Source: Paenibacillus polymyxa M1 (lineage in GTDB: Bacteria; Bacillota; Bacilli; Paenibacillales; Paenibacillaceae). From it: a DNA stretch of 64,000 nucleotides. The first letter of the stretch is position 1, and every line of letters begins with the position of its first letter. Location of the stretch: positions 5,388,501-5,452,500 of the forward strand of contig NC_017542.1 of NCBI RefSeq assembly GCF_000237325.1, in the 5' to 3' direction. This document shows, piece by piece, positions 41,937-52,010 of the stretch. Both the position numbers and the translations under genes were made by a program. The notes under the pieces were generated by a model that searched no databases, had not been told where the DNA came from, and saw only the letters and a program-made list of their open reading frames with translations.

Positions 41937-42259
41937 GTTGTATTCACTTCCCTTATCTGTATTCAATATGTGTCACGTAAAATAGGTTCATGTGCCATAT
42001 GACATCTATCGTTCCATAGTTCAGAATTCCCATTTTTGTATCGGTTCTCATTCTCCCCTTTTCAGGAAGGGAGCATATCCGTTATCGTTGAATCTGTTCA
42101 TGTAACTCAACATACGGCCGCAAGGCGGCTCAGGCCGTTCCATATATGACTTTCCTAGTATACGCGAAGTTGAACTGGTTTCCAAACGATTTTAACGAAT
42201 AACGCAAAAGGTGAATTCAATCACCATGTCATATATTATGGTAGGAGAATTGGTAATTC
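41937..42259. other. Divergent control region between helicase and the unknown operon
   Basis: 323 nt. It holds a minus-strand promoter (42157-42185) about 215 nt before the helicase start, hence a long leader with a CGGCC/GGCCG hairpin around 42115-42137. On the plus side is a dyad GGTGA-N6-TCACC (42210-42225), just upstream of TATATT/TATTAT-like -10 sequences (42232-42239) for the operon beginning at 42260. No gene inside. Confidence 0.55.
42157..42185 (-). promoter_or_regulatory. Promoter of the DEAD-box helicase gene
   Basis: On the minus strand TTGGAA (42180-42185), 17-nt spacer, TATACT (42157-42162). Expected start near 42150, so the 5' leader is about 215 nt. Confidence 0.55.
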
Positions 42260-42877
42260 ATGAATAAAGGATGGATGCTTGTGGTTAACAATCTACATTA
42301 TAATTTCATAATGACAGGTTCCTTATCGGAGAAGCACACTTTGTTTGCCGAAGAGTGCTTTACTAACCTGTTCGATTGTTTTGAAACATTCCTGAACATA
42401 TCAGGAATCCGCAATACCCGTGTGTCTGTCTATCAATCCAAGAAAGCCAAACACGCTAAGATCCGCTGGGACAAGCAGGAGTTGCTCCGCATTGTAACCG
42501 ATAATGAATTGACTCCATTGATGCTGGTTATCGAGGCTCCCAGTATCAAATCGTCCTATAACAAAGGGACAACGCCGGAAGTCTACATTCTTTTGTCCAA
42601 TGACCCTATGGGTCAATCTCCCAACAATTGCGGGATGCTTGTTTCGATCCGTCAGGACATTTATGAACGTATCGACCAAACAATCGTCGAAGACGTTATG
42701 ATGCAGCTGAGCCAGTGGATAAAGGCAACCAAACTGTTACACAGCTCGCGCAACTTTTATGCTGGTAGTAAAGCACGTGCCATTATGGATATTCTTCCAT
42801 TTATGCTCGAAAAGGATACTCCGGATATGAAGTATGTTTTTCAATCGTGGACTCCGTATCCTTTACCACACACTTAA
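42260..42877 (+). CDS. Unrecognised cytosolic protein, gene 1 of the seven-gene operon
   Basis: 205 residues, no signal peptide or membrane helix. It contains LTPLMLVIEAPSIKSS and EVYILLSNDPMGQSP (mixed alpha/beta), a helical segment from about 140 on, and an unusual C-terminus rich in aromatic and Pro residues. No family recognised. AGGAGA lies 11 nt before the ATG. First gene of a same-strand run up to 46203 with gaps of 2-49 nt, so it is probably co-transcribed with the HEAT and Imm26-like genes. Confidence 0.6.
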   Translation: MNKGWMLVVNNLHYNFIMTGSLSEKHTLFAEECFTNLFDCFETFLNISGIRNTRVSVYQSKKAKHAKIRWDKQELLRIVTDNELTPLMLVIEAPSIKSSYNKGTTPEVYILLSNDPMGQSPNNCGMLVSIRQDIYERIDQTIVEDVMMQLSQWIKATKLLHSSRNFYAGSKARAIMDILPFMLEKDTPDMKYVFQSWTPYPLPHT

Positions 42878-42916
42878 ACAATCCGTCATCCCATTAACCC
42901 TAGGAGGCTGCAATTT

Positions 42917-43561
42917 ATGCAAATTCAAGTTCAAAAGGCTGAAAAAAAAGAAAACGAATATCTCATTCATTATCAAGCGGGAGGAGCTCTGCCGTTCGTT
43001 CCGCATGATGTTGTTCTGATCCATGGCAAACAGTATTTTATAGGTACGATTTTGAAGGTAGAGTCGGAACAGGTCCTTATCCGTATCAATCCAGAATATG
43101 AAGACCAACTGACAGGGTCCATCGGACTGGAACTGGCTTTCTCTCCAACCGTTTCTATTCAAGGTGCAGACAGCATTGTAGAAAAGCTCGGCTATTTTCC
43201 ACCTTTTCACTATGACCGAATCACGGCTGCCAATATGACGAAAGACCAGATTACACTGACAATTGAGCTATCCCCCGCTAGCGTGCTAGTTCCTAAATCA
43301 CCGGATCTGGAACCTTCGGCTGATGCACCAGTGATCCCTGAGGCTCCAGCCAAAGATATTCCACGCTATGCAGTGACTTTTACATTTCTGGAAACCAAAG
43401 AGCATGTATTAACCCCTGTAGAAACAGAAAATATCATCTTGCAGCTCGATTTCCGCTATGAAGAAGCAGACATGGTCGTTGACATCGATGCCTTGTCAGG
43501 GCTGTCAGGCAGCTTTCTGTGCAGAGGCATCCGTGCAGAGATTACGGAACTTCATGAATAA
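42917..43561 (+). CDS. Unrecognised beta-rich protein, gene 2 of the operon
   Basis: 214 residues, cytosolic. The N-terminal half (about 1-115) is beta-rich and short-looped (DVVLIHGKQYFIGTILKVES). A Pro/Ala-rich linker (about 125-150) leads to a second beta-rich part ending FLCRGIRAEITELHE, so two domains are likely. No family recognised. AGGAGG 9 nt before the ATG. Overlaps the next gene by 8 nt. Confidence 0.6.
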   Translation: MQIQVQKAEKKENEYLIHYQAGGALPFVPHDVVLIHGKQYFIGTILKVESEQVLIRINPEYEDQLTGSIGLELAFSPTVSIQGADSIVEKLGYFPPFHYDRITAANMTKDQITLTIELSPASVLVPKSPDLEPSADAPVIPEAPAKDIPRYAVTFTFLETKEHVLTPVETENIILQLDFRYEEADMVVDIDALSGLSGSFLCRGIRAEITELHE

Positions 43562-43961
43562 ACATGAAGCCCGTGAGCTGTTGCGCTGTCATTCTTTTAT
43601 TCATGATGATCTGGAGCATCCCAAAATGCGAAGCGGGTTTCTAGGGATGCTTCGTCCCTTCCAGGGAGAACTGATCGAGGATAATTTTCATGAGCTCATG
43701 ACTATCATTGAAGTTCTGGCAGATGAGTTGGAGAAACCGTCCGTAGAACGGGAGCTTATATCCGCTCTGTGGGGGATTTGCCAATATACACGGGCATGGG
43801 CGTTGCATCCTGATGGTATGCTGCAGCGAAATCACCTGCTGACCGTAGAGCAGATTAGTACGCTTGACGATTGGATTGATACAATCTCCTATGCGGTTAT
43901 GGTGCTGCTAGAGGGTGGCGGAACGGAAGAAGCTTTATCGAACTACAGACAACGAGAGTAG
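43554..43961 (+). CDS. Unrecognised small helical protein, gene 3 of the operon
   Basis: 135 residues, acidic, almost entirely helical (HELMTIIEVLADELEK, LISALWGICQYTRAW). No family recognised; size, acidity and all-helical make-up are common among immunity proteins, which is only suggestive. The ATG at 43554 lies inside the last codons of gene 2, so it is translationally coupled. A longer frame from 43458 overlaps gene 2 too far to be likely. Confidence 0.55.
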   Translation: MNKHEARELLRCHSFIHDDLEHPKMRSGFLGMLRPFQGELIEDNFHELMTIIEVLADELEKPSVERELISALWGICQYTRAWALHPDGMLQRNHLLTVEQISTLDDWIDTISYAVMVLLEGGGTEEALSNYRQRE

Positions 43962-44010
43962 GTAATACACAATGTCAAAAAGTAATCTGGCTAAGAAATG
44001 AGGGGGGTAT

Positions 44011-44517
44011 ATGTCCATACAAACTGATGATGACGGAAAGACGTTCTTATCTATTTTCCCTACACTATCGTATGAAGATCGATTAGTCTCATTACGCGAA
44101 TTAACAGCTATACCCCAGCCCATGGGGGACACCATCGCATTCCTTTTGCAGCTTGTGCAGCAATCATCTGAGGATGATCTGCTTCGTATAGAAGCGCTGA
44201 AGGTCATCGGGCTATATGCGGATCAGAGCCAGCAGCCGATGATCATGCGAGGAATTCGCGAGCTGCTGTCCAAGCCTGATGAAGATGATGATGTACGAAA
44301 CGCAGCTTTACAAACTTTGGCATGGATGCCTTGTTCAGAAGCAGAGCTACATATAGCTTTGGACTTAATCCGCAGTGATACATATATCTTAGTCAAGGGG
44401 GCCGCTTTTGCACTGCTCCGCGCACATAAAGCCCACCCTTTCGCACAACATGCGCTGAAGCAATTATTGCAACATGAGGAATTCGGTGCATCTGCCCAGC
44501 GTGAGCTGTCCACATAA
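44011..44517 (+). CDS. HEAT-repeat protein, gene 4 of the operon
   Basis: 168 residues made of paired helices with the HEAT pattern: LLRIEALKVIGLYAD, VRNAALQTLAWMPCS, VKGAAFALLRAHKAHPFA. About four repeats give a small curved solenoid, a protein-binding scaffold. GAGGGGGG sits a few nt before the ATG. No catalytic motif. Its place between unknown genes suggests it binds one of their products. Confidence 0.65.
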   Translation: MSIQTDDDGKTFLSIFPTLSYEDRLVSLRELTAIPQPMGDTIAFLLQLVQQSSEDDLLRIEALKVIGLYADQSQQPMIMRGIRELLSKPDEDDDVRNAALQTLAWMPCSEAELHIALDLIRSDTYILVKGAAFALLRAHKAHPFAQHALKQLLQHEEFGASAQRELST

Positions 44518-44546
44518 TCGACAACCAAAGGAGAATCACTCTACTT

Positions 44547-45176
44547 ATGCGTGTAAGAATATTTATATTCATATTGATTATCGGAATTATTTGTGTGCCT
44601 GCCTATTTCATTATGAGCAGCTTTGGATTATTCCAAAATGAGAAGGTGCTTGTACATTACAAGCTGGCCCTTGAGGTAAAGGGTAAAAAATATGATGCCT
44701 GGCCTTTAATCAGCAGTTATACCGCAATAGATAAAAATGGGGACCATCGTCAGCTCTACTATCAGGCGGAGGGCTCAGGCATAGAGTATCTGTTTCAACT
44801 TGCCTATGGACAGTATGAACTCAAGCCCTCCAAAGAAAATCCTTTTCTGGATGGGGGAATCCACTATACCATGGACCATCCTGAGTATGTACGTGAGGAA
44901 AAACAGTATGAGAATGCCAACGACTATACGGAATTAACCCATTATTACAACCAACAGGAACAGGTTATTTATACTTACAATCCTGAAGCCAGCCTCGACA
45001 AAACCTACGTGCGCTCCATCATCACCGCTGGAATGACTCGCACCACTGGTAATTCAAGTAGGCCGGTGAAGGATGATTATATTAATATCAGTAAGCTGTT
45101 TAAGGACAAGCTCGGAGTAAATGTGAAGGTAGATGTGGATGAGGACAACAAAATCGTTACCCTGTCCATGTCATAA
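44547..45176 (+). CDS. Membrane-anchored unknown protein, gene 5 of the operon
   Basis: 209 residues. An N-terminal hydrophobic helix (about 4-24), not followed by a lipobox Cys, puts the remaining beta-rich 180 residues probably outside. Tyr and acidic residues are frequent (GIEYLFQLAYGQYELKPS). No family recognised. The only gene of the operon with a membrane segment, so it may link the others to the envelope. Confidence 0.6.
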   Translation: MRVRIFIFILIIGIICVPAYFIMSSFGLFQNEKVLVHYKLALEVKGKKYDAWPLISSYTAIDKNGDHRQLYYQAEGSGIEYLFQLAYGQYELKPSKENPFLDGGIHYTMDHPEYVREEKQYENANDYTELTHYYNQQEQVIYTYNPEASLDKTYVRSIITAGMTRTTGNSSRPVKDDYINISKLFKDKLGVNVKVDVDEDNKIVTLSMS

Positions 45177-45205
45177 TAAAACGAAAAGAAAGGAAGACGC
45201 TATAA

Positions 45206-45766
45206 ATGACAGAAACACAGCATACTAAATTAGGGCCTGCTTATTTGGAGGATTGGGTTGTACCCGAAAACCCGGAGGCATGGGTTGAACAAGAATGGAC
45301 AGGTAAGCTCCGTTCACAGGCCGGAAATACGAAATTTCACATTTTTTACTATGGAGAATTCATGGATGAGCTGATCGCTGTAACAGAGTTTGCGCCCCAG
45401 CTCATTATTGCAGAAGATGCAGTCACAGGTGAGCAGATCGTCATTTTTGATGGAACTCGCCATGGTTACGATGCACTACTGTGTGAAGTATATACAGAAG
45501 AACAGCAGAACAATCGCACTCCCCTGCTACCTTATCTGGACGATGACGGTGAGGATACCTTTGAGGTGACCGTGACTGCTTTTTATAATGTTGATTGGGA
45601 TGACGAGTTTGCAGATGATGTGGACGAGAACGGACAGCTGGAGCTGATCAGCGGCGAACGGTGCGATTTTGAAGAGGCCAAGCGAAACGGTTTTGATGCG
45701 ATTAGCATTACAATTACCAGCGCTAAAGGTCTAAAAACAGAGATCCTTCAGGAAGAGCTGGCCTGA
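45206..45766 (+). CDS. Unrecognised acidic protein, gene 6 of the operon
   Basis: 186 residues, strongly acidic (DWDDEFADDVDENG, LDDDGED), cytosolic, beta-rich. No family recognised. AAAGGAAG ribosome site. Stop codon 2 nt before the next ATG, so it is tightly coupled to the Imm26-like gene. The high acidity fits a binder of a basic partner such as a nuclease toxin, an inference only. Confidence 0.58.
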   Translation: MTETQHTKLGPAYLEDWVVPENPEAWVEQEWTGKLRSQAGNTKFHIFYYGEFMDELIAVTEFAPQLIIAEDAVTGEQIVIFDGTRHGYDALLCEVYTEEQQNNRTPLLPYLDDDGEDTFEVTVTAFYNVDWDDEFADDVDENGQLELISGERCDFEEAKRNGFDAISITITSAKGLKTEILQEELA

Positions 45767-45768
45767 CG

Positions 45769-46203
45769 ATGGTATTTAAGAGAATCAAACATCAGGAAGG
45801 CGATATTTTTGTTATCCCTCTGCATGACGGCCGATTTGCGGTATGTCAGGTGATCTGCGCACTGTATGGTCGATTCAAAAAAGCGTTCTCCTTTGGTGTT
45901 CTATCCATAGGTCAGAATCAAGCGTACGAGGGTGAAGCTACATATCTCTCATTCACAGATTACCGGGGCAGGTTCGAGGTTATATTCACCGCCACCCAAA
46001 ATCTGACGAAGGGAGTATGGCCCATTATCGATCATCGCCTTCTATCTGAGGAACAACAGCAGCTAAAATATTTTAATTGCGCGGGCCATCTGTATTACGG
46101 AGATGAATATGTACGCAACCTGGAACTAAAAGAATATAATCAATATCCTGTAATGGGCGTGGCTGGATATGAACTGGTACAGCAATATTTAGCCCAAGCA
46201 TAA
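45769..46203 (+). CDS. Imm26-like immunity protein, gene 7 of the operon
   Basis: 144 residues. The opening EGDIFVIPLHDGRFAVCQVI matches the Imm26 family (EGDIFxIPLxDGxFxxxxVI), an immunity family found next to polymorphic toxins. The remainder is beta-rich with IDHRLLSEEQ. No toxin gene (LXG, WXG, Rhs or nuclease domain) was found nearby. Translation is coupled to gene 6 (2-nt gap). Family call from memory of the motif. Confidence 0.65.
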   Translation: MVFKRIKHQEGDIFVIPLHDGRFAVCQVICALYGRFKKAFSFGVLSIGQNQAYEGEATYLSFTDYRGRFEVIFTATQNLTKGVWPIIDHRLLSEEQQQLKYFNCAGHLYYGDEYVRNLELKEYNQYPVMGVAGYELVQQYLAQA

Positions 46204-46225
46204 AGAACAAAAAGAATAGCAACTT

Positions 46226-46265
46226 AAAGAGCCACCTTAAAGTTCGAAAACCAGGGTGGCTCTTT
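46226..46265. terminator. Bidirectional terminator between the operon and a SUKH gene
   Basis: Perfect 11-bp stem AAAGAGCCACC/GGTGGCTCTTT with an eighteen-base loop. It ends the plus-strand operon and the convergent gene at 46272. Short T runs only. Confidence 0.65.
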
Positions 46266-46271
46266 AACGAT

Positions 46272-46811
46272 TTAAAAGGGTTCAAATGTATAAGGGAATG
46301 GTGTACGATGTGTTCCCAAAATCGACTTTACGCGTTCTCTATCCAGCAGCGCTTCGACGAAGCTATACAAATCCGGGGCTGCATACCGAAAGTTGCCCCA
46401 TGTGCGCAGATTCAAAGCATAAATCGGGAATTCCCCCCGTTTATCAGGCGATTGAATATCCCAGACCAGCAGGTCATCCTCTTCACTGGAAGCGAAGGGA
46501 ACGGCATGTTCCAATAATTGCGGGAAACCATCTGGCTCCAACGCCGCTTCTTGTAAGACCTCCTCCGATTCCAGTACATCATCAAACCAAGCTCGCCAGT
46601 CATGGTAACGATGAAGCCATGAATCCGGATGATCCCCGAGAGGAATATGGATGTTCCATACGCCACATAACCGCCCGTAGCCAAGAGTCTTGACGTAATC
46701 TATATAGGAAGGCGGAAAGCCCCGTCCATTTGAAAAACGATGCTCTATAAGAAATTCTTCATCATAATAAGCCTGAATCTGCAAACGTTGCAGCCCTGTA
46801 AAAATACTCAT
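46272..46811 (-). CDS. SMI1/KNR4 (SUKH) family protein
   Basis: About 179 residues. The SUKH pattern is visible as FPPSYIDYVKTLGYGRLCG near residues 32-50, GFPQLLEHAVPFASSEEDDLLVWD, and SFVEALLD near the C-terminus. SUKH proteins are widespread immunity proteins that bind toxins of contact-dependent or secreted systems. ATG at 46811 has AAAGGAG upstream. Convergent with the seven-gene operon. Confidence 0.75.
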   Translation of the reverse strand: MSIFTGLQRLQIQAYYDEEFLIEHRFSNGRGFPPSYIDYVKTLGYGRLCGVWNIHIPLGDHPDSWLHRYHDWRAWFDDVLESEEVLQEAALEPDGFPQLLEHAVPFASSEEDDLLVWDIQSPDKRGEFPIYALNLRTWGNFRYAAPDLYSFVEALLDRERVKSILGTHRTPFPYTFEPF

Positions 46812-46911
46812 GCTCGCCCTCTCCTTTTGCACATCCTATTCGCCTTTTCACCCTTCGGCACATTGAAAAGGCCATTTTCAAGTGTTAAAATGGGAATAAT
46901 ATGTATATTCT

Positions 46912-46948
46912 AAAAAAGAGTGAAGATGCGTCAACATCCTCACTCTTT
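46912..46948 (-). terminator. Terminator of the collapsed toxin transcript
   Basis: Stem AAAGAGTGAAGATG/CATCCTCACTCTTT, 14 positions with one mismatch, six-base loop, TTTTTT on the minus strand. A second stem-loop, CAGCC/GGCTG, lies at 46953-46979. Confidence 0.7.
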
Positions 46949-46994
46949 GGCAACAGCCGCTTTTAAGGGCGGTGGCTGCAAGTTCACGGTATTC

Positions 46995-47035
46995 GAAATA
47001 GACCGGTTCCTACCACGGGCGGTCTATTTCTTTTT
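46995..47035 (+). terminator. Hairpin and plus-strand terminator inside the toxin remnant
   Basis: Perfect 10-bp stem GAAATAGACC/GGTCTATTTC, sixteen-base loop, then TTTTT on the plus strand. It could end an antisense RNA against the remnant. The stem carries the stop codon of the minus-strand mini-frame. Confidence 0.6.
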
Positions 47036-47068
47036 ATGGAAGGAAAGAATCAGGGCCTCACCTCCTTT
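47024..47068 (-). pseudogene. Probable remnant of a holin-like type I toxin gene
   Basis: On the minus strand a strong AAAGGAGGTGAG (47057-47068) is followed within 4 nt by a mini-frame reading LILSFHKKK and stop (47024-47053). In Bacillota holin-like (Fst/TxpA-type) toxins the same ribosome site precedes a 25-40 residue membrane peptide that ends in Lys residues. Here only the tail is left, as if the coding middle was deleted. An extended -10 (TG-T-TATAAT, minus strand, about 47119-47124) lies upstream, and several stem-loops follow, as in type I toxin mRNAs. Assignment by pattern recall. Confidence 0.4.
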
Positions 47069-47179
47069 ACAGGAGACTAGCCGACCGCCCATCTAAGCCA
47101 TTCTGTTGTTAAGGAATATTATAACATATGATATATAAAAAGTACGTTTTTACGCTCTTTCCGAAAAGGAGGAACGAAC

Positions 47180-47839
47180 ATGGAGCAAAAACGCTTCAAA
47201 GATGAATATGGATATAAATATGACTTTGCCGCCGTGATCCGGAGAGGAGAACAGGTAGCTGTTCACTGTCCTCGCTGTCAGGGCCAAGCTTTTATTTCCA
47301 GATCTAAAGAAGACTGTTATTACGTTGTTCGCTGCTCTCATTGTTACTACACATTTCAGCAGCCAGAATCGTATAAATTCTATGCACGCGGTGTATGCAG
47401 CCATTGCGAGCGATATTTTAATATTGAAATCCATGATGACCGAACGGTTACTCATAAAAATACGAATATACACTGTCCGCACTGTGAGACACGTAATCAA
47501 GTTCCGGTGCATCGTATGCAGTCACGTGAATGGCATACAGACGTGATCCAAAATGGGAAAGATCCTATTTTCCAGCTCCAACTGTATTTCCTTGATTACT
47601 ATCGTGGGAAACCGGTGTGGGCTCTTAACCGGATACACCTGAATTATTTGCTCTCCTATATCTCTGCCGAGTTGCGGGAAAAACCCACATCCGGTATGAT
47701 GCGCACGGCTTCCCATTCCATTCCAAAGTACATTAAGGATGCGAAAAATCGCCAGGCCATCTTAAAAATATTACAAAAACTACAGCATAAACAAGCGTCT
47801 AAGGGTGAGCATTCCAAACATGAGTATACAAACTTTTGA
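47180..47839 (+). CDS. Zinc-ribbon protein with four CxxC knuckles
   Basis: 219 residues. Four CxxC pairs, C30/C33, C52/C55, C73/C76 and C99/C102, make two treble-clef zinc ribbons in the N-terminal half. The C-terminal half is helical and basic (SIPKYIKDAKNRQAILKILQ), perhaps binding nucleic acid. No family recognised. AAAAGGAGG precedes the ATG. Its last codons overlap the start of a small downstream gene (47820). Confidence 0.65.
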   Translation: MEQKRFKDEYGYKYDFAAVIRRGEQVAVHCPRCQGQAFISRSKEDCYYVVRCSHCYYTFQQPESYKFYARGVCSHCERYFNIEIHDDRTVTHKNTNIHCPHCETRNQVPVHRMQSREWHTDVIQNGKDPIFQLQLYFLDYYRGKPVWALNRIHLNYLLSYISAELREKPTSGMMRTASHSIPKYIKDAKNRQAILKILQKLQHKQASKGEHSKHEYTNF

Positions 47840-48015
47840 CAGCCTAGAAGCACTGGTCCAGGCCGTCTGTCAGACCACCACGTGCAATCTCGGCTGGAGA
47901 TAGCGACTGTACAGATGTTATTGAAGTACTACGCCGCAGTGGAAGCGAGCCGGATGTTCAACGCATTGCGCAGGGACTGCAATATGATCATGAATACAAT
48001 GCTTTTATGGAATAA
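47820..48015 (+). pseudogene. Frameshifted small gene after the zinc-ribbon gene
   Basis: An ATG at 47820, overlapping the zinc-ribbon stop, reads MSIQTFDSLEALVQAV and stops at 47901-47903. The +1 frame continues from about 47896 as GDSDCTDVIEVLRRSG to a stop at 48013-48015, with coding-like composition. Joined, they give a protein of about 65 residues. A one- or two-base indel near 47890-47900, a sequencing error or programmed frameshifting would each explain it. It runs 11 nt into the convergent gene at 48005. Confidence 0.45.
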
Positions 48016-49639
48016 GCGTCTCCAGTATCTCTTTTACCTCAGGGACAGCCTGCTTCAGGCTGTTTTTTAGTTTCTTTGCACCACCCCATATACGATAAAC
48101 GATCATCTCTTGTTCGTAGTCTTCCAACTTCTCAAGTACATTTACTAGCGCCTTCGCCTGTTCTGCACTTTCAATGCCAGCCGATTTCAGAGGTTTGGCA
48201 GAATCATTACCTGCCAAAAGAATCCTCACCCATACGGGAATCGTATCCGGTGTCAGTCCATGTGCCTCAGCAAACACAGCGGCGTAACCGTCCTGCACCG
48301 ACTGGTGCTCACTATCCACTAGCTTCATATAACGACTCACTAACGGAAAATATTCCGTTCCTTTAAGTCCTAATCCCATCACCGCATAGGTTCCAGGCAT
48401 TGCTGACTTCTCCCCCGGCTCTACATCGTTGTACCACTTGAATTCTTCCATCACAGTCTCGGCATATTCCGCCAGCAACGGGTGCAGCGAAGGGTATTCA
48501 AGTGCATTGGCAAAGAAACGATGTAATGCAGATTTGGCTAACTTGGGTATGGGTAGATAGTTTTTCACTTTGCTTTTGAACTTCATCCCATATTCCTTAG
48601 TAAAGCCTTTTCGTAATATATCACATAGATATACGAGTGCTTCTCTATAGCTCTCTTCTTCCTCAGAACGAATCTGAACCTCCAGTGTTTGCAAAATATC
48701 ATTCGCTTGGCAGGTGACTCGTTCACTTGTATATGACGCTGGAATGCTGCCTGATCCACTCTTAAGCCACTCGGCTGCCTGATTTGAACCCAGTTGTGCA
48801 GCAATCTCCAAATAACTCTGCCGTGCATCGGCATCGGTCGAACCCACACGCATCGCGGTGAGCAGGAACATCTCCATGGCGGGGGCAGGAATATCTGAAG
48901 GAAGAATATCGGGCCTCACCGTATACTCCAGCCCGTAGTTTTTTTCCCGATCTGCGTATTTGGCCAAAAATTCATCTTCAGCCCAATGCATTAAGCCTCT
49001 GCTCAGCTGATGCCTCCATGCTTCTTCTCGCTTACGGCTAACCTGCACTTTTGCATCCATTCGATTCAACAGCTCATTCACCCACTGGGCGTCTATAGGG
49101 TACAAATGAGGATCAAGCAAGTGCCTTACTAAGAAAAAATCGTCCTCTTCCTTCGGGATAGCTTTACTGGCAGGGTCAAGCTTTTGCTCCACAAACTGTT
49201 CGATAGTGGCTAACAGATGCTGCCGCTTATCTTCGTTCAACAGCGAGAATGTAAAATGACTGGCCTTATTCTCCAAGACCACCTCTAGATGAAATTCCAG
49301 CCGATAACGAAAAAACATAGGACTAAATTCTTCAGAATTATACAGGGCCGCTATCCGTTCTTTGAACACAGGCATCCATTCATCCTGCACCTGCTGGAGC
49401 GTCACTTCTTCCGTAAAACCGGAAATATCCATATCTGGTCTACGATGATCCCAATCAAACGGTTCGTAGGTATCCACCCATAACCCGTCGCTCTTACAGG
49501 TAACTTTTAAGTATTCATGAATCCCTTCGTGAAGGACGCTTTTGGTCTTGAATTCCGCGATGCGTTTTTGCTCAGAAGCGTATCTCTGGTCAATCTCCTC
49601 AAAAATTGGATCTATGTAGGCCTGTACCCCCGATGTCAT
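48005..49639 (-). CDS. Large unrecognised protein, 544 residues
   Basis: 544 residues, acidic, soluble, largely helical. The first 120 residues look like a separate alpha/beta domain (GIHEYLKVTCKSDGLWVDTYE); the rest is helical with several YLEIAAQLGSNQAAEWL-type stretches resembling Sel1/TPR repeats, and ends in an Arg/Lys-rich helix. No family recognised with confidence; it may belong to a Paenibacillus DUF. Own promoter presumed in the 158-nt divergent gap to the SUKH pair at 49798. Convergent overlap of 11 nt with the frameshifted small gene. Confidence 0.6.
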   Translation of the reverse strand: MTSGVQAYIDPIFEEIDQRYASEQKRIAEFKTKSVLHEGIHEYLKVTCKSDGLWVDTYEPFDWDHRRPDMDISGFTEEVTLQQVQDEWMPVFKERIAALYNSEEFSPMFFRYRLEFHLEVVLENKASHFTFSLLNEDKRQHLLATIEQFVEQKLDPASKAIPKEEDDFFLVRHLLDPHLYPIDAQWVNELLNRMDAKVQVSRKREEAWRHQLSRGLMHWAEDEFLAKYADREKNYGLEYTVRPDILPSDIPAPAMEMFLLTAMRVGSTDADARQSYLEIAAQLGSNQAAEWLKSGSGSIPASYTSERVTCQANDILQTLEVQIRSEEEESYREALVYLCDILRKGFTKEYGMKFKSKVKNYLPIPKLAKSALHRFFANALEYPSLHPLLAEYAETVMEEFKWYNDVEPGEKSAMPGTYAVMGLGLKGTEYFPLVSRYMKLVDSEHQSVQDGYAAVFAEAHGLTPDTIPVWVRILLAGNDSAKPLKSAGIESAEQAKALVNVLEKLEDYEQEMIVYRIWGGAKKLKNSLKQAVPEVKEILETLIP

Positions 49640-49797
49640 ACGATGTGCTCCCCTTTCATACCCTCACAAATTGTAGTTCTTACATAATTGAGATAGACTA
49701 ATATTTAACTATTTTATTTCCTGATTATAGCATATCTCTCATTTACATTTGGACTCCATCCCTATAGATAGAGTGCCAGAAAGCAGGTGTATTCTAC

Positions 49798-50574
49798 ATG
49801 TATTGGGTTTCCACACAGCACACGCCAGTAGCTGCCGATGAACTGACAAATTTCGAACATACCTATGGCATAACTTTACCAATTCCCTATGCTTCATTTC
49901 TCACCCAATACGGGCCAGGTACCTATTGCGGCCTGCTGGTGATTGAACGACCTGATCCTCAACTTTTGCAATCCTATGCGGATTACGAACTGTGGACGCA
50001 TAATGATAACTGTCCGATCACCGCGCAACAGCTGGGCGAGTGCGTGTTCATCGGCAGCTCCATAGATGGTGATTTTCTAGCGGTGCATCCTCAGGTCGAA
50101 GGCTTGCTTTGGCTACCGCGACATTCGGAGGTCATTACTATGAAGCCATTAGATGTTCAAGCCCCATTTATAGATACACTAGAGCATATACTACGGGATG
50201 AATTCGGAAGAATAGAGCCATTCCCCCGTTATTTCGAGCCTGTCAGTCTGGATAGAGTTGCAACATTTCTACAATTTAATCCACCGGAGACGGCGGAAGC
50301 TTACGGTTCAGCCAATCCGAACGATCAAGCCTTGCAAGTAGCTCCAGCATCTATACAGGTATTGGCTCAGCGTTTTAAACAGCATTTTGACTCAAATCTA
50401 TGGATTGAAAACGAGCATATCTGCTTGGCTTTTCTTCAGTCTCTTGGCGGATACGTACGTTTCAATTATGCATATGGACGCGAAGTGGCGATCATTTATG
50501 AATCTAAAGCGATAGCACTTCATGATGAAGTTCTATCATTCCTGCAAAAAGAACATTGCCAGGTTGTAGAGTAA
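49798..50574 (+). CDS. SMI1/KNR4 (SUKH) family protein with a C-terminal extension
   Basis: 258 residues. SUKH domain at about 10-135: TNFEHTYGITLPIPYASFLTQYGPG, CVFIGSSIDGDFLAVHP, and LEHILRDEFG. From about 140 on, an extra mixed domain includes IQVLAQRFKQHFDSNLWIENEHIC. Likely an immunity or protein-binding role. 17 nt before the next SUKH-containing gene, so the two form an operon. Confidence 0.72.
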   Translation: MYWVSTQHTPVAADELTNFEHTYGITLPIPYASFLTQYGPGTYCGLLVIERPDPQLLQSYADYELWTHNDNCPITAQQLGECVFIGSSIDGDFLAVHPQVEGLLWLPRHSEVITMKPLDVQAPFIDTLEHILRDEFGRIEPFPRYFEPVSLDRVATFLQFNPPETAEAYGSANPNDQALQVAPASIQVLAQRFKQHFDSNLWIENEHICLAFLQSLGGYVRFNYAYGREVAIIYESKAIALHDEVLSFLQKEHCQVVE

Positions 50575-50591
50575 GAGGAGGACGAATACAA

Positions 50592-52010
50592 ATGACAGTA
50601 CATTTTGCACATATCTTAGAAAAGCTCGGAGGGATCGCTAAGCGCCTGAGACAAGGTGGGATGCCTGACGTAGTATACCAATGGACGAAGGGGATTTCCG
50701 AAGAGGAACTGACTGAGTTGGAGGAACGGCTGCAAATCCCTTTGCCTGCCTCCCTGTCTGAATTGATAAAGCGGTGTGGCAGCTTACATTTGCTATGGTG
50801 CCTCCCTCAACACTGTATTGTAGCCGATGAACCGGCTTGTTCATATGAAAGCAGTAATGGCCTTAAACAAAAACCGAATATGCTTGACGATATTACAGGA
50901 GAATTTGGCTGGAATCATGAGTATATAAGCTATTTTACATCCTATGGAGAAAACACCGACTCAGCAGCGGACGAACAACGATATCTAATTTTAAACTATA
51001 ACGGTGCCGGTGATCCGATCCTGCTTGATAGAGCGACATCCGCAACAGAGCCAGCAGTGTTCTGTTATGAGCATGAGTTGGATCGGTTCATGCTGCTCGC
51101 AGAAAGTCTACCTACCTATATAGAAACCATGCTTGCCTTACACGGGTTATGGCTGTGGGATTGGTCTAACGTGTCAGACGAGCTTGGTATTCAACTAGAC
51201 AGCCCACCGCTGCAGTTGTGGCAGCGCTGGTTGAACACGTTCTGTACGATGAAGCTGGAGGATGCCGCCCGGTCGCTGGAAACACTGATCCATTACACCA
51301 CCATGCATGGCGCAGATCATCCTGCTGTACTGCAGGCTTTTCAGGCCTATGATCCAAAGGATATTTTTCTTGCCTGGGAGCAGCGCATTCAGCGTAACCC
51401 GGCCCAATTCGCTACATGGGCATTTTTTATTGGGGAGACCGCAGGTATTGGGGCTGCTGACTGGGTTCGCTCCTTATGGGAGCCGGACACGGATATCACG
51501 CAAGCATGGAATTCATCCGCTTCAAATAACATACATGCTGAGAGAGCATTTGTCTCGACACGTGCCTATCTATCCGCCCGCTGTCTGCCCGAACAGGAAG
51601 GATTAGAAAATGTTTATAATGATCTGATGCAGCATACGGCAAAGGATGGCAAATTAGAAGGGTACACCGTTAGCGGGCAGTTACAGCATTTTCATTCACC
51701 GCAGGTCATTGACTGGATGCGGGATAAGGTCAATCATCCGGTCGATGGCTGGGCAGTACTTTTCGCCTACTCTCGTCCTACAGCTGAGCAGGTGATTGAA
51801 TGGCTATCCAGTAACGAGCTTCATCAGAAAATTGCAACCGAGGCGCTGGATATCATGATTCAGCGCGATCTTCTGCCCGGTCTAGAAGCAGACGTTTGGG
51901 CTAGCATCTCAAACCTGCTTCATGCTTCTTTACAACTCGTGATGCTCAAAAAAGATAAACGTCGCATTGAAGCCGTGCTGGAGCAGCTTTCAGATTTGAA
52001 ACTTCGTTAA
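50592..52010 (+). CDS. SMI1/KNR4 (SUKH) domain fused to a long helical region
   Basis: About 472 residues. SUKH domain at about 25-185 (GISEEELTELEERLQIPLPASLSELIKRCG, YLILNYNGAGDPILLD). Then about 280 residues of helices without a recognised family (WAVLFAYSRPTAEQVIEWLSS), perhaps ARM/HEAT-like. ATG at 50592 follows AAGAGGAGG; a frame from 50556 would overlap the preceding gene. Second gene of the SUKH pair. Such fusions are larger than the usual SUKH immunity proteins of 130-200 residues. Confidence 0.68.
   Translation: MTVHFAHILEKLGGIAKRLRQGGMPDVVYQWTKGISEEELTELEERLQIPLPASLSELIKRCGSLHLLWCLPQHCIVADEPACSYESSNGLKQKPNMLDDITGEFGWNHEYISYFTSYGENTDSAADEQRYLILNYNGAGDPILLDRATSATEPAVFCYEHELDRFMLLAESLPTYIETMLALHGLWLWDWSNVSDELGIQLDSPPLQLWQRWLNTFCTMKLEDAARSLETLIHYTTMHGADHPAVLQAFQAYDPKDIFLAWEQRIQRNPAQFATWAFFIGETAGIGAADWVRSLWEPDTDITQAWNSSASNNIHAERAFVSTRAYLSARCLPEQEGLENVYNDLMQHTAKDGKLEGYTVSGQLQHFHSPQVIDWMRDKVNHPVDGWAVLFAYSRPTAEQVIEWLSSNELHQKIATEALDIMIQRDLLPGLEADVWASISNLLHASLQLVMLKKDKRRIEAVLEQLSDLKLR

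Follow-up and report, generated by a model that had tools for sequence, protein, structure and literature searches.

Why would a soil bacterium keep seven small and unlike genes packed into a single run? The question is raised by a locus of Paenibacillus polymyxa M1 at positions 42260–46203 of the 64,000-nucleotide stretch analysed here (contig NC_017542.1, 5,388,501–5,452,500 of the forward strand; this whole stretch is called the window, and its numbering is used throughout). The P. polymyxa group is known for plant-growth-promoting soil bacteria. A preliminary description of the locus, made from the sequence alone, offered two readings: an immunity array collected against foreign toxins, or a functional unit whose parts act together. 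Our analysis supports the first. The operon is probably a heterogeneous polyimmunity locus, i.e. a store of separate antidotes against the toxins of rival bacteria; we favour this reading because the locus holds known immunity families, because no recognised toxin was found and because its genes turn over one by one between related species.

Results

Seven open reading frames (ORFs) on the plus strand, genes 1–7, are packed into 42260–46203. Recomputed coordinates gave gaps of 39, −8, 49, 29, 29 and 2 nucleotides (nt), identical to those first listed; the negative value reflects the overlap of the start of gene 3 (43554) with the end of gene 2 (43561). Gene 2 (42917–43561; 214 amino acids) carries an Imm50 domain (PF15594) at residues 84–212, with a score of 94.3 bits against a cut-off of 27.1. 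Gene 7 (45769–46203; 144 amino acids) is an Imm26 protein (PF15428; 88.0 bits, cut-off 23.3) and gene 4 (44011–44517; 168 amino acids) has HEAT repeats (HEAT_2; 40.9 bits, cut-off 27.7). The initial label of 'unknown proteins' thus holds for genes 1, 3, 5 and 6, which have no family, and not for genes 2, 4 and 7, while the HEAT member, the Imm26-like member and the membrane-anchored member named at the same time are all borne out. The last of these is gene 5 (44547–45176; 209 amino acids), which has no Pfam match and a single hydrophobic segment at its N-terminus, a predicted membrane anchor recognized by eye in the sequence and from an alignment. Gene 1 (42260–42877; 205 amino acids) matches nothing in Pfam or NCBIfam and is a candidate immunity protein. 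Gene 3 (43554–43961; 135 amino acids), also without a Pfam match, is predicted to be all-helical. Gene 6 (45206–45766; 186 amino acids) belongs to no known family: the Pfam scan returned a sub-threshold match to DUF5704 alone (12 bits), and the named sources of its 36 homologues are Paenibacillus, one metagenome-assembled genome of Bacillota and one compost metagenome. Its structure model has a predicted local distance difference test score (pLDDT) of 82.1 and gave no clear match when compared for fold.

As first described, no toxin adjoins the run. The profile scans found no toxin family among the 12 proteins of the array, which extends downstream of gene 7 (see below), and ten flanking proteins, a result that cannot judge the unassigned genes. 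LXG and RHS toxins, the classes searched for, gave no match in the genome itself while positive controls gave signal.

The content of the locus varies strongly between relatives. Searches of 75 Paenibacillus genomes with each gene, in which any match with E ≤ 0.001 was accepted and remnants were counted, found genes 1–7 in 8, 25, 45, 41, 60, 64 and 32 genomes, respectively; gene 1 occurs solely in the 15-genome P. polymyxa-group clade, where all eight of its genomes lie. The chromosomal site, marked by a flanking cation-efflux gene, is held by 15 of the 75. At this site tblastn pieces were scored at E ≤ 0.01 and at least 55% identity, and a copy was called intact if it was at least 90% covered in one frame with no stop. 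Genes 1–7 are intact in 5, 15, 7, 3, 14, 11 and 5 of the 15 genomes, present as remnants in 8, 0, 1, 10, 1, 4 and 3 (some of the gene 1 remnants being very short) and absent from 2, 0, 7, 2, 0, 0 and 7. The wrecks of lost genes still sit at their original place. The complete intact set is found in three clade genomes (G000, G019 and G025); the 60 genomes outside the clade, which lack gene 1, never have it. Nine combinations of intact genes occur overall. The preliminary description had named genes that fail to co-occur as a ground for refuting its proposal, and by that measure the unit reading of the seven genes fails. With so many combinations and so few complete sets, the parts appear to be separately dispensable, and the idea of a single unit does not hold for the seven. 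Mapped onto a tree built from two genes that flank the site, the intact state was lost at least 6, 0, 5, 5, 1, 3 and 3 separate times for genes 1–7; these counts assume one gain per gene, several of the nodes are weak (support of 45, 55 and 61 among others) and transfer between relatives is possible. Four relatives have an additional SUKH gene, placed after gene 5 and before gene 6 (intact in two, broken in two and absent from 11 of the 15). Two genomes, G013 and G008, have lost almost all of the downstream part (half of the array), and a branched-chain amino-acid transporter gene occupies its place.

The genes that survive do not look neglected. Compared with the window copy, intact copies of genes 1–7 have ratios of nonsynonymous to synonymous substitution (dN/dS) of 0.03–0.20, those of the flanking CDF and DEAD genes being 0.02–0.10, and so look to be under purifying selection. 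Two SUKH genes of the downstream extension, (b) and (c), look less constrained than genes 1–7, as their dN/dS values are 0.18–0.48. As far as sequence comparison can tell, the pattern of loss is that of genes that are individually dispensable and individually useful.

Three further observations concern relatives of these genes outside the window. An open frame in G060 (L146:4801–5265) resembles gene 3 at its start and gene 4 (HEAT) thereafter, an apparent fusion made by deletion. A homologue of gene 4 with ∼40% identity lies outside this array (L160:5984–6499), where it adjoins a 135-amino-acid gene of no family, with a formate/nitrite transporter gene nearby. Finally, in the wider-genus loci L006, L008 and L010–L020, though not in L007 or L009, purF and purM are separated by an Imm26-like gene that shares ∼50% identity with gene 7. 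The eight clade genomes with an Imm26 match have one copy each, located in this array.

Gene 3 has relatives in several phyla. It has 76 homologues (41–95% identical), and 38 loci were obtained from Bacillota, Bacteroidota, Actinomycetota, Pseudomonadota and further groups, a patchy distribution over phyla that suggests transfer; its structure model has a pLDDT of 96.5. In G069 a single protein of 361 amino acids (L165) joins gene 3 to a SUKH domain. An Imm33-like gene follows gene 3 in all seven Saccharibacillus loci (the family being assigned from L182 and L184), and in P. algorifonticola (L186) gene 3 is followed by a gene that combines Imm33 and DUF2314. In the nomenclature given by Zhang et al. 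(2012; PMC3482391), DUF2185 is Imm33 and DUF2314 is Imm34, and the sections of that paper used here class such fusions as polyimmunity proteins. The SUKH fusion, together with an Imm33-type gene downstream in eight other loci, makes gene 3 a candidate new immunity family.

A hairpin at 46224–46267, lying between convergent genes (−22.5 kcal/mol, z = −6.05, with an outer stem of 15 pairs), closes the seven-gene run and is likely to be a bidirectional terminator, judging from its predicted folding. Upstream, the dyad GGTGA-N6-TCACC that had been placed in the promoter is present 5′ of gene 1 (42210–42225). It is intact in two of the 14 genomes read, window included, and is therefore not a conserved operator; a consensus scan of the plus strand upstream of gene 1 listed no sigma-70-like site.

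Gene 7 had been taken as the end of the array. The array instead runs on from 46272 to 52010, with mixed strands, unlike the seven-gene run, and holds three SUKH-like genes, a zinc-ribbon gene (znR), a DUF6138 gene and a broken DUF7716 gene. SUKH-like gene (a) (46272–46832, minus strand) scores below the cut-off for both SUKH_6 (23.4 bits, cut-off 27) and SMI1_KNR4 (22.9 bits, cut-off 25.4). The znR gene (47180–47839, plus strand) has weak zinc-ribbon matches, all below their cut-offs. The DUF7716 remnant (47820–48012, plus strand) is broken, its tblastn pieces being spread over three frames; the gene is intact in eight of the 15 clade genomes, and its family was assigned via L141 (PF24832; 43.5 bits). 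The DUF6138 gene (48005–49639, minus strand; PF19635) scores 641 bits. SUKH-like gene (b) (49798–50574, plus strand) falls below the SMI1_KNR4 cut-off at 19.3 bits, and a wider-genus relative with 42% identity passes it at 28.3 bits; SUKH gene (c) (50556–52010, plus strand), which has a C-terminal extension, passes it at 46.2 bits (cut-off 25.4). The ten flanking proteins scanned, within 34.5–57.2 kb, are all of ordinary types: ABC, luciferase-like, AI-2E, LytR, cation efflux, DEAD, TetR, amine oxidoreductase, esterase-type and solute-binding.

Related arrays headed by znR stand at other chromosomal sites in the wider genus, with the content znR, gene 5, gene 6, SUKH (b), a 433-amino-acid gene with weak β-propeller matches, gene 3 and SUKH. 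They share with the present array homologues of genes 3, 5 and 6, SUKH (b) and znR, and differ from it in gene order, in chromosomal neighbours and in having no match to its Imm50, Imm26 and HEAT genes. Ten of the 12 tabulated loci hold znR, gene 5 and gene 6, in this order in all ten, and genes 5 and 6 overlap by 4 nt in nine and by 1 nt in one; gene 3 is not present as a separate gene in some of the 12. In another genus znR adjoins gene 5 in six loci (L227–L232), with gene 6 as well in L230 and L232; in the same genus L234 has znR and gene 6 together and L233 has none of them. Saccharibacillus sp. O23 (L181) has the order znR, gene 3, Imm33-like; a DUF7716 gene follows znR in L266 and L269 (by Pfam) and L270 (by BLAST); and in L267 the 433-amino-acid gene is the next ORF of at least 70 amino acids after znR. 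When the search was extended to the whole class, 34 of 398 genomes had a znR match, in 20 of them at E < 1e-20, the rest being weak partial matches. From these gene neighbourhoods, znR is a recurrent head gene of variable arrays of small genes in several genera, with exchangeable company.

Discussion

Heterogeneous polyimmunity loci, as set out in the part of Zhang et al. (2012; PMC3482391) devoted to them, consist of unrelated immunity proteins in one orientation, with short gaps and no toxin inside; the number and type of their genes can vary even within a single species, from strain to strain, and there is usually one locus per genome. The present run resembles them in its several unrelated immunity families, in the small gaps between genes on one strand with a predicted single transcript, in the lack of any interrupting recognised toxin and in content that varies between relatives. 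The first three of these features fit in full, and the locus therefore appears to belong to the kind described in 2012; the same source counts Paenibacillus polymyxa as one of the soil bacilli in which immunity proteins are in excess. The present run differs from the loci described there in that four of its seven proteins match none of the described immunity families, no recombinase was found beside it, wrecks remain in place and the variation known here is between species only, the content differences having been observed between 15 species-level genomes. A second comparison is with the recombinase-associated orphan immunity arrays (rAID) of Bacteroidales (PMC12247911), which likewise are orphan immunity arrays that include SUKH domains; that work, in the part drawn on here, describes orphan SUKH immunity proteins that guard gut bacteria from effectors of the type VI secretion system. 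The P. polymyxa array differs in its Gram-positive host, in having no recombinase in its ten flanking proteins and in having no known type VI partner. We found no paper describing this locus, which is not proof that none exists; what the present analysis contributes is the candidate families, the recognition of znR as a head gene and the record of losses.

If the operon is a polyimmunity locus, its single predicted transcript would supply an array of separate antidote proteins, each binding and blocking its own toxin among those that rivals deliver. PMC3482391 lists HEAT, Imm26 and Imm50 as immunity families, pairing HEAT with Tox-REase-7, Imm26 with Tox-URI1 and Imm50 with Tox-HHH or Ntox24. 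By these pairings gene 7 would act on URI-type nuclease domains, gene 2 on Tox-HHH or Ntox24 domains and gene 4 on a restriction-endonuclease-type domain. Genes 1, 3, 5 and 6 would, by the company they keep, be further immunity families, and gene 5, whose predicted anchor appears by eye to leave the protein facing outwards, may guard against a toxin acting on the envelope. Inserted genes would enlarge the array and local deletions would reduce it, in step with changes in the set of toxins met locally.

Several observations weigh against this reading. Genes 1, 3, 5 and 6 have no immunity-family match in the profile scans, gene 2 is intact in all 15 clade genomes, and no recombinase was found among the ten flanking proteins scanned, other ORFs not having been scanned. 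The lack of LXG and RHS matches in this genome contrasts with the median-or-higher number of toxins that PMC3482391, in the part used here, gives for such soil bacilli. Around 20 other gene 3 loci (seven from Paenibacillus, L186 included, and 13 from other groups), no Imm family is among the 25 commonest of the 93 families to which 80 neighbours belong. The Imm26-like gene sits in a purine operon in 13 of the 15 wider-genus loci read, for which immunity gives no explanation. Lastly, gene 5 has homologues in 60 and gene 6 in 64 of the 75 genus genomes, and the two overlap by 4 nt in nine of ten wider-genus loci, which is steadier than would be expected of fast-changing antidotes.

The last point leads to the strongest rival, namely that znR, the membrane-anchored gene 5, gene 6 and perhaps the 433-amino-acid propeller-like gene form a real functional unit around which immunity genes have been inserted. 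A smaller core of znR, gene 5 and gene 6, more stable in the wider genus, could exist as a unit: the constant gene order, the overlap in nine of ten loci, the breadth of the gene 5 and gene 6 homologues and the adjacency of znR and gene 5 in six loci of another genus all favour it. The members also occur apart. Gene 6 occurs without an intact gene 5 in G008, G016, G017, G023 and G036, gene 5 occurs with a broken gene 6 in G045 and G061–G063, and L227–L229 and L231 have znR and gene 5 with no match to gene 6. Within the clade znR is intact in only six of 15 genomes and stands apart from gene 5, and the extra SUKH gene separates gene 5 from gene 6 in four relatives. We consider this explanation unlikely. 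A wider version of the polyimmunity reading, which to us is doubtful, sees a modular antidote island of the Paenibacillaceae, with znR as its constant head and as its working centre or recruiter, and with genes 1, 3, 5 and 6 and DUF7716 as new immunity families, gene 3 reaching across phyla. The exchanged followers of znR would then be the sets gene 5–gene 6–SUKH, gene 3–Imm33, DUF7716 and the 433-amino-acid propeller-like gene.

That all seven genes build one multi-subunit complex or pathway, which the tight operon and its single strong terminator-like hairpin might suggest, is very improbable given the three complete sets among 15 clade genomes, none among the 60 others, the nine combinations and the unrelated domain types. 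Just as improbable is the reading that the array is what remains of a toxin locus once present in this lineage, its toxin lost and its antidotes lingering: the many wrecks and the lack of LXG or RHS matches agree with it, but dN/dS is low in the intact copies, no toxin family was found among the array and neighbour proteins scanned and a host of unrelated antidotes would scarcely be required against a single toxin.

Read as a polyimmunity locus, the operon would turn hypothetical proteins of the P. polymyxa group into testable antidotes. As many as four candidates for new families of immunity proteins would come with it, of which gene 3 is cross-phylum, and in this locus the loss of single members from such arrays can be read step by step.

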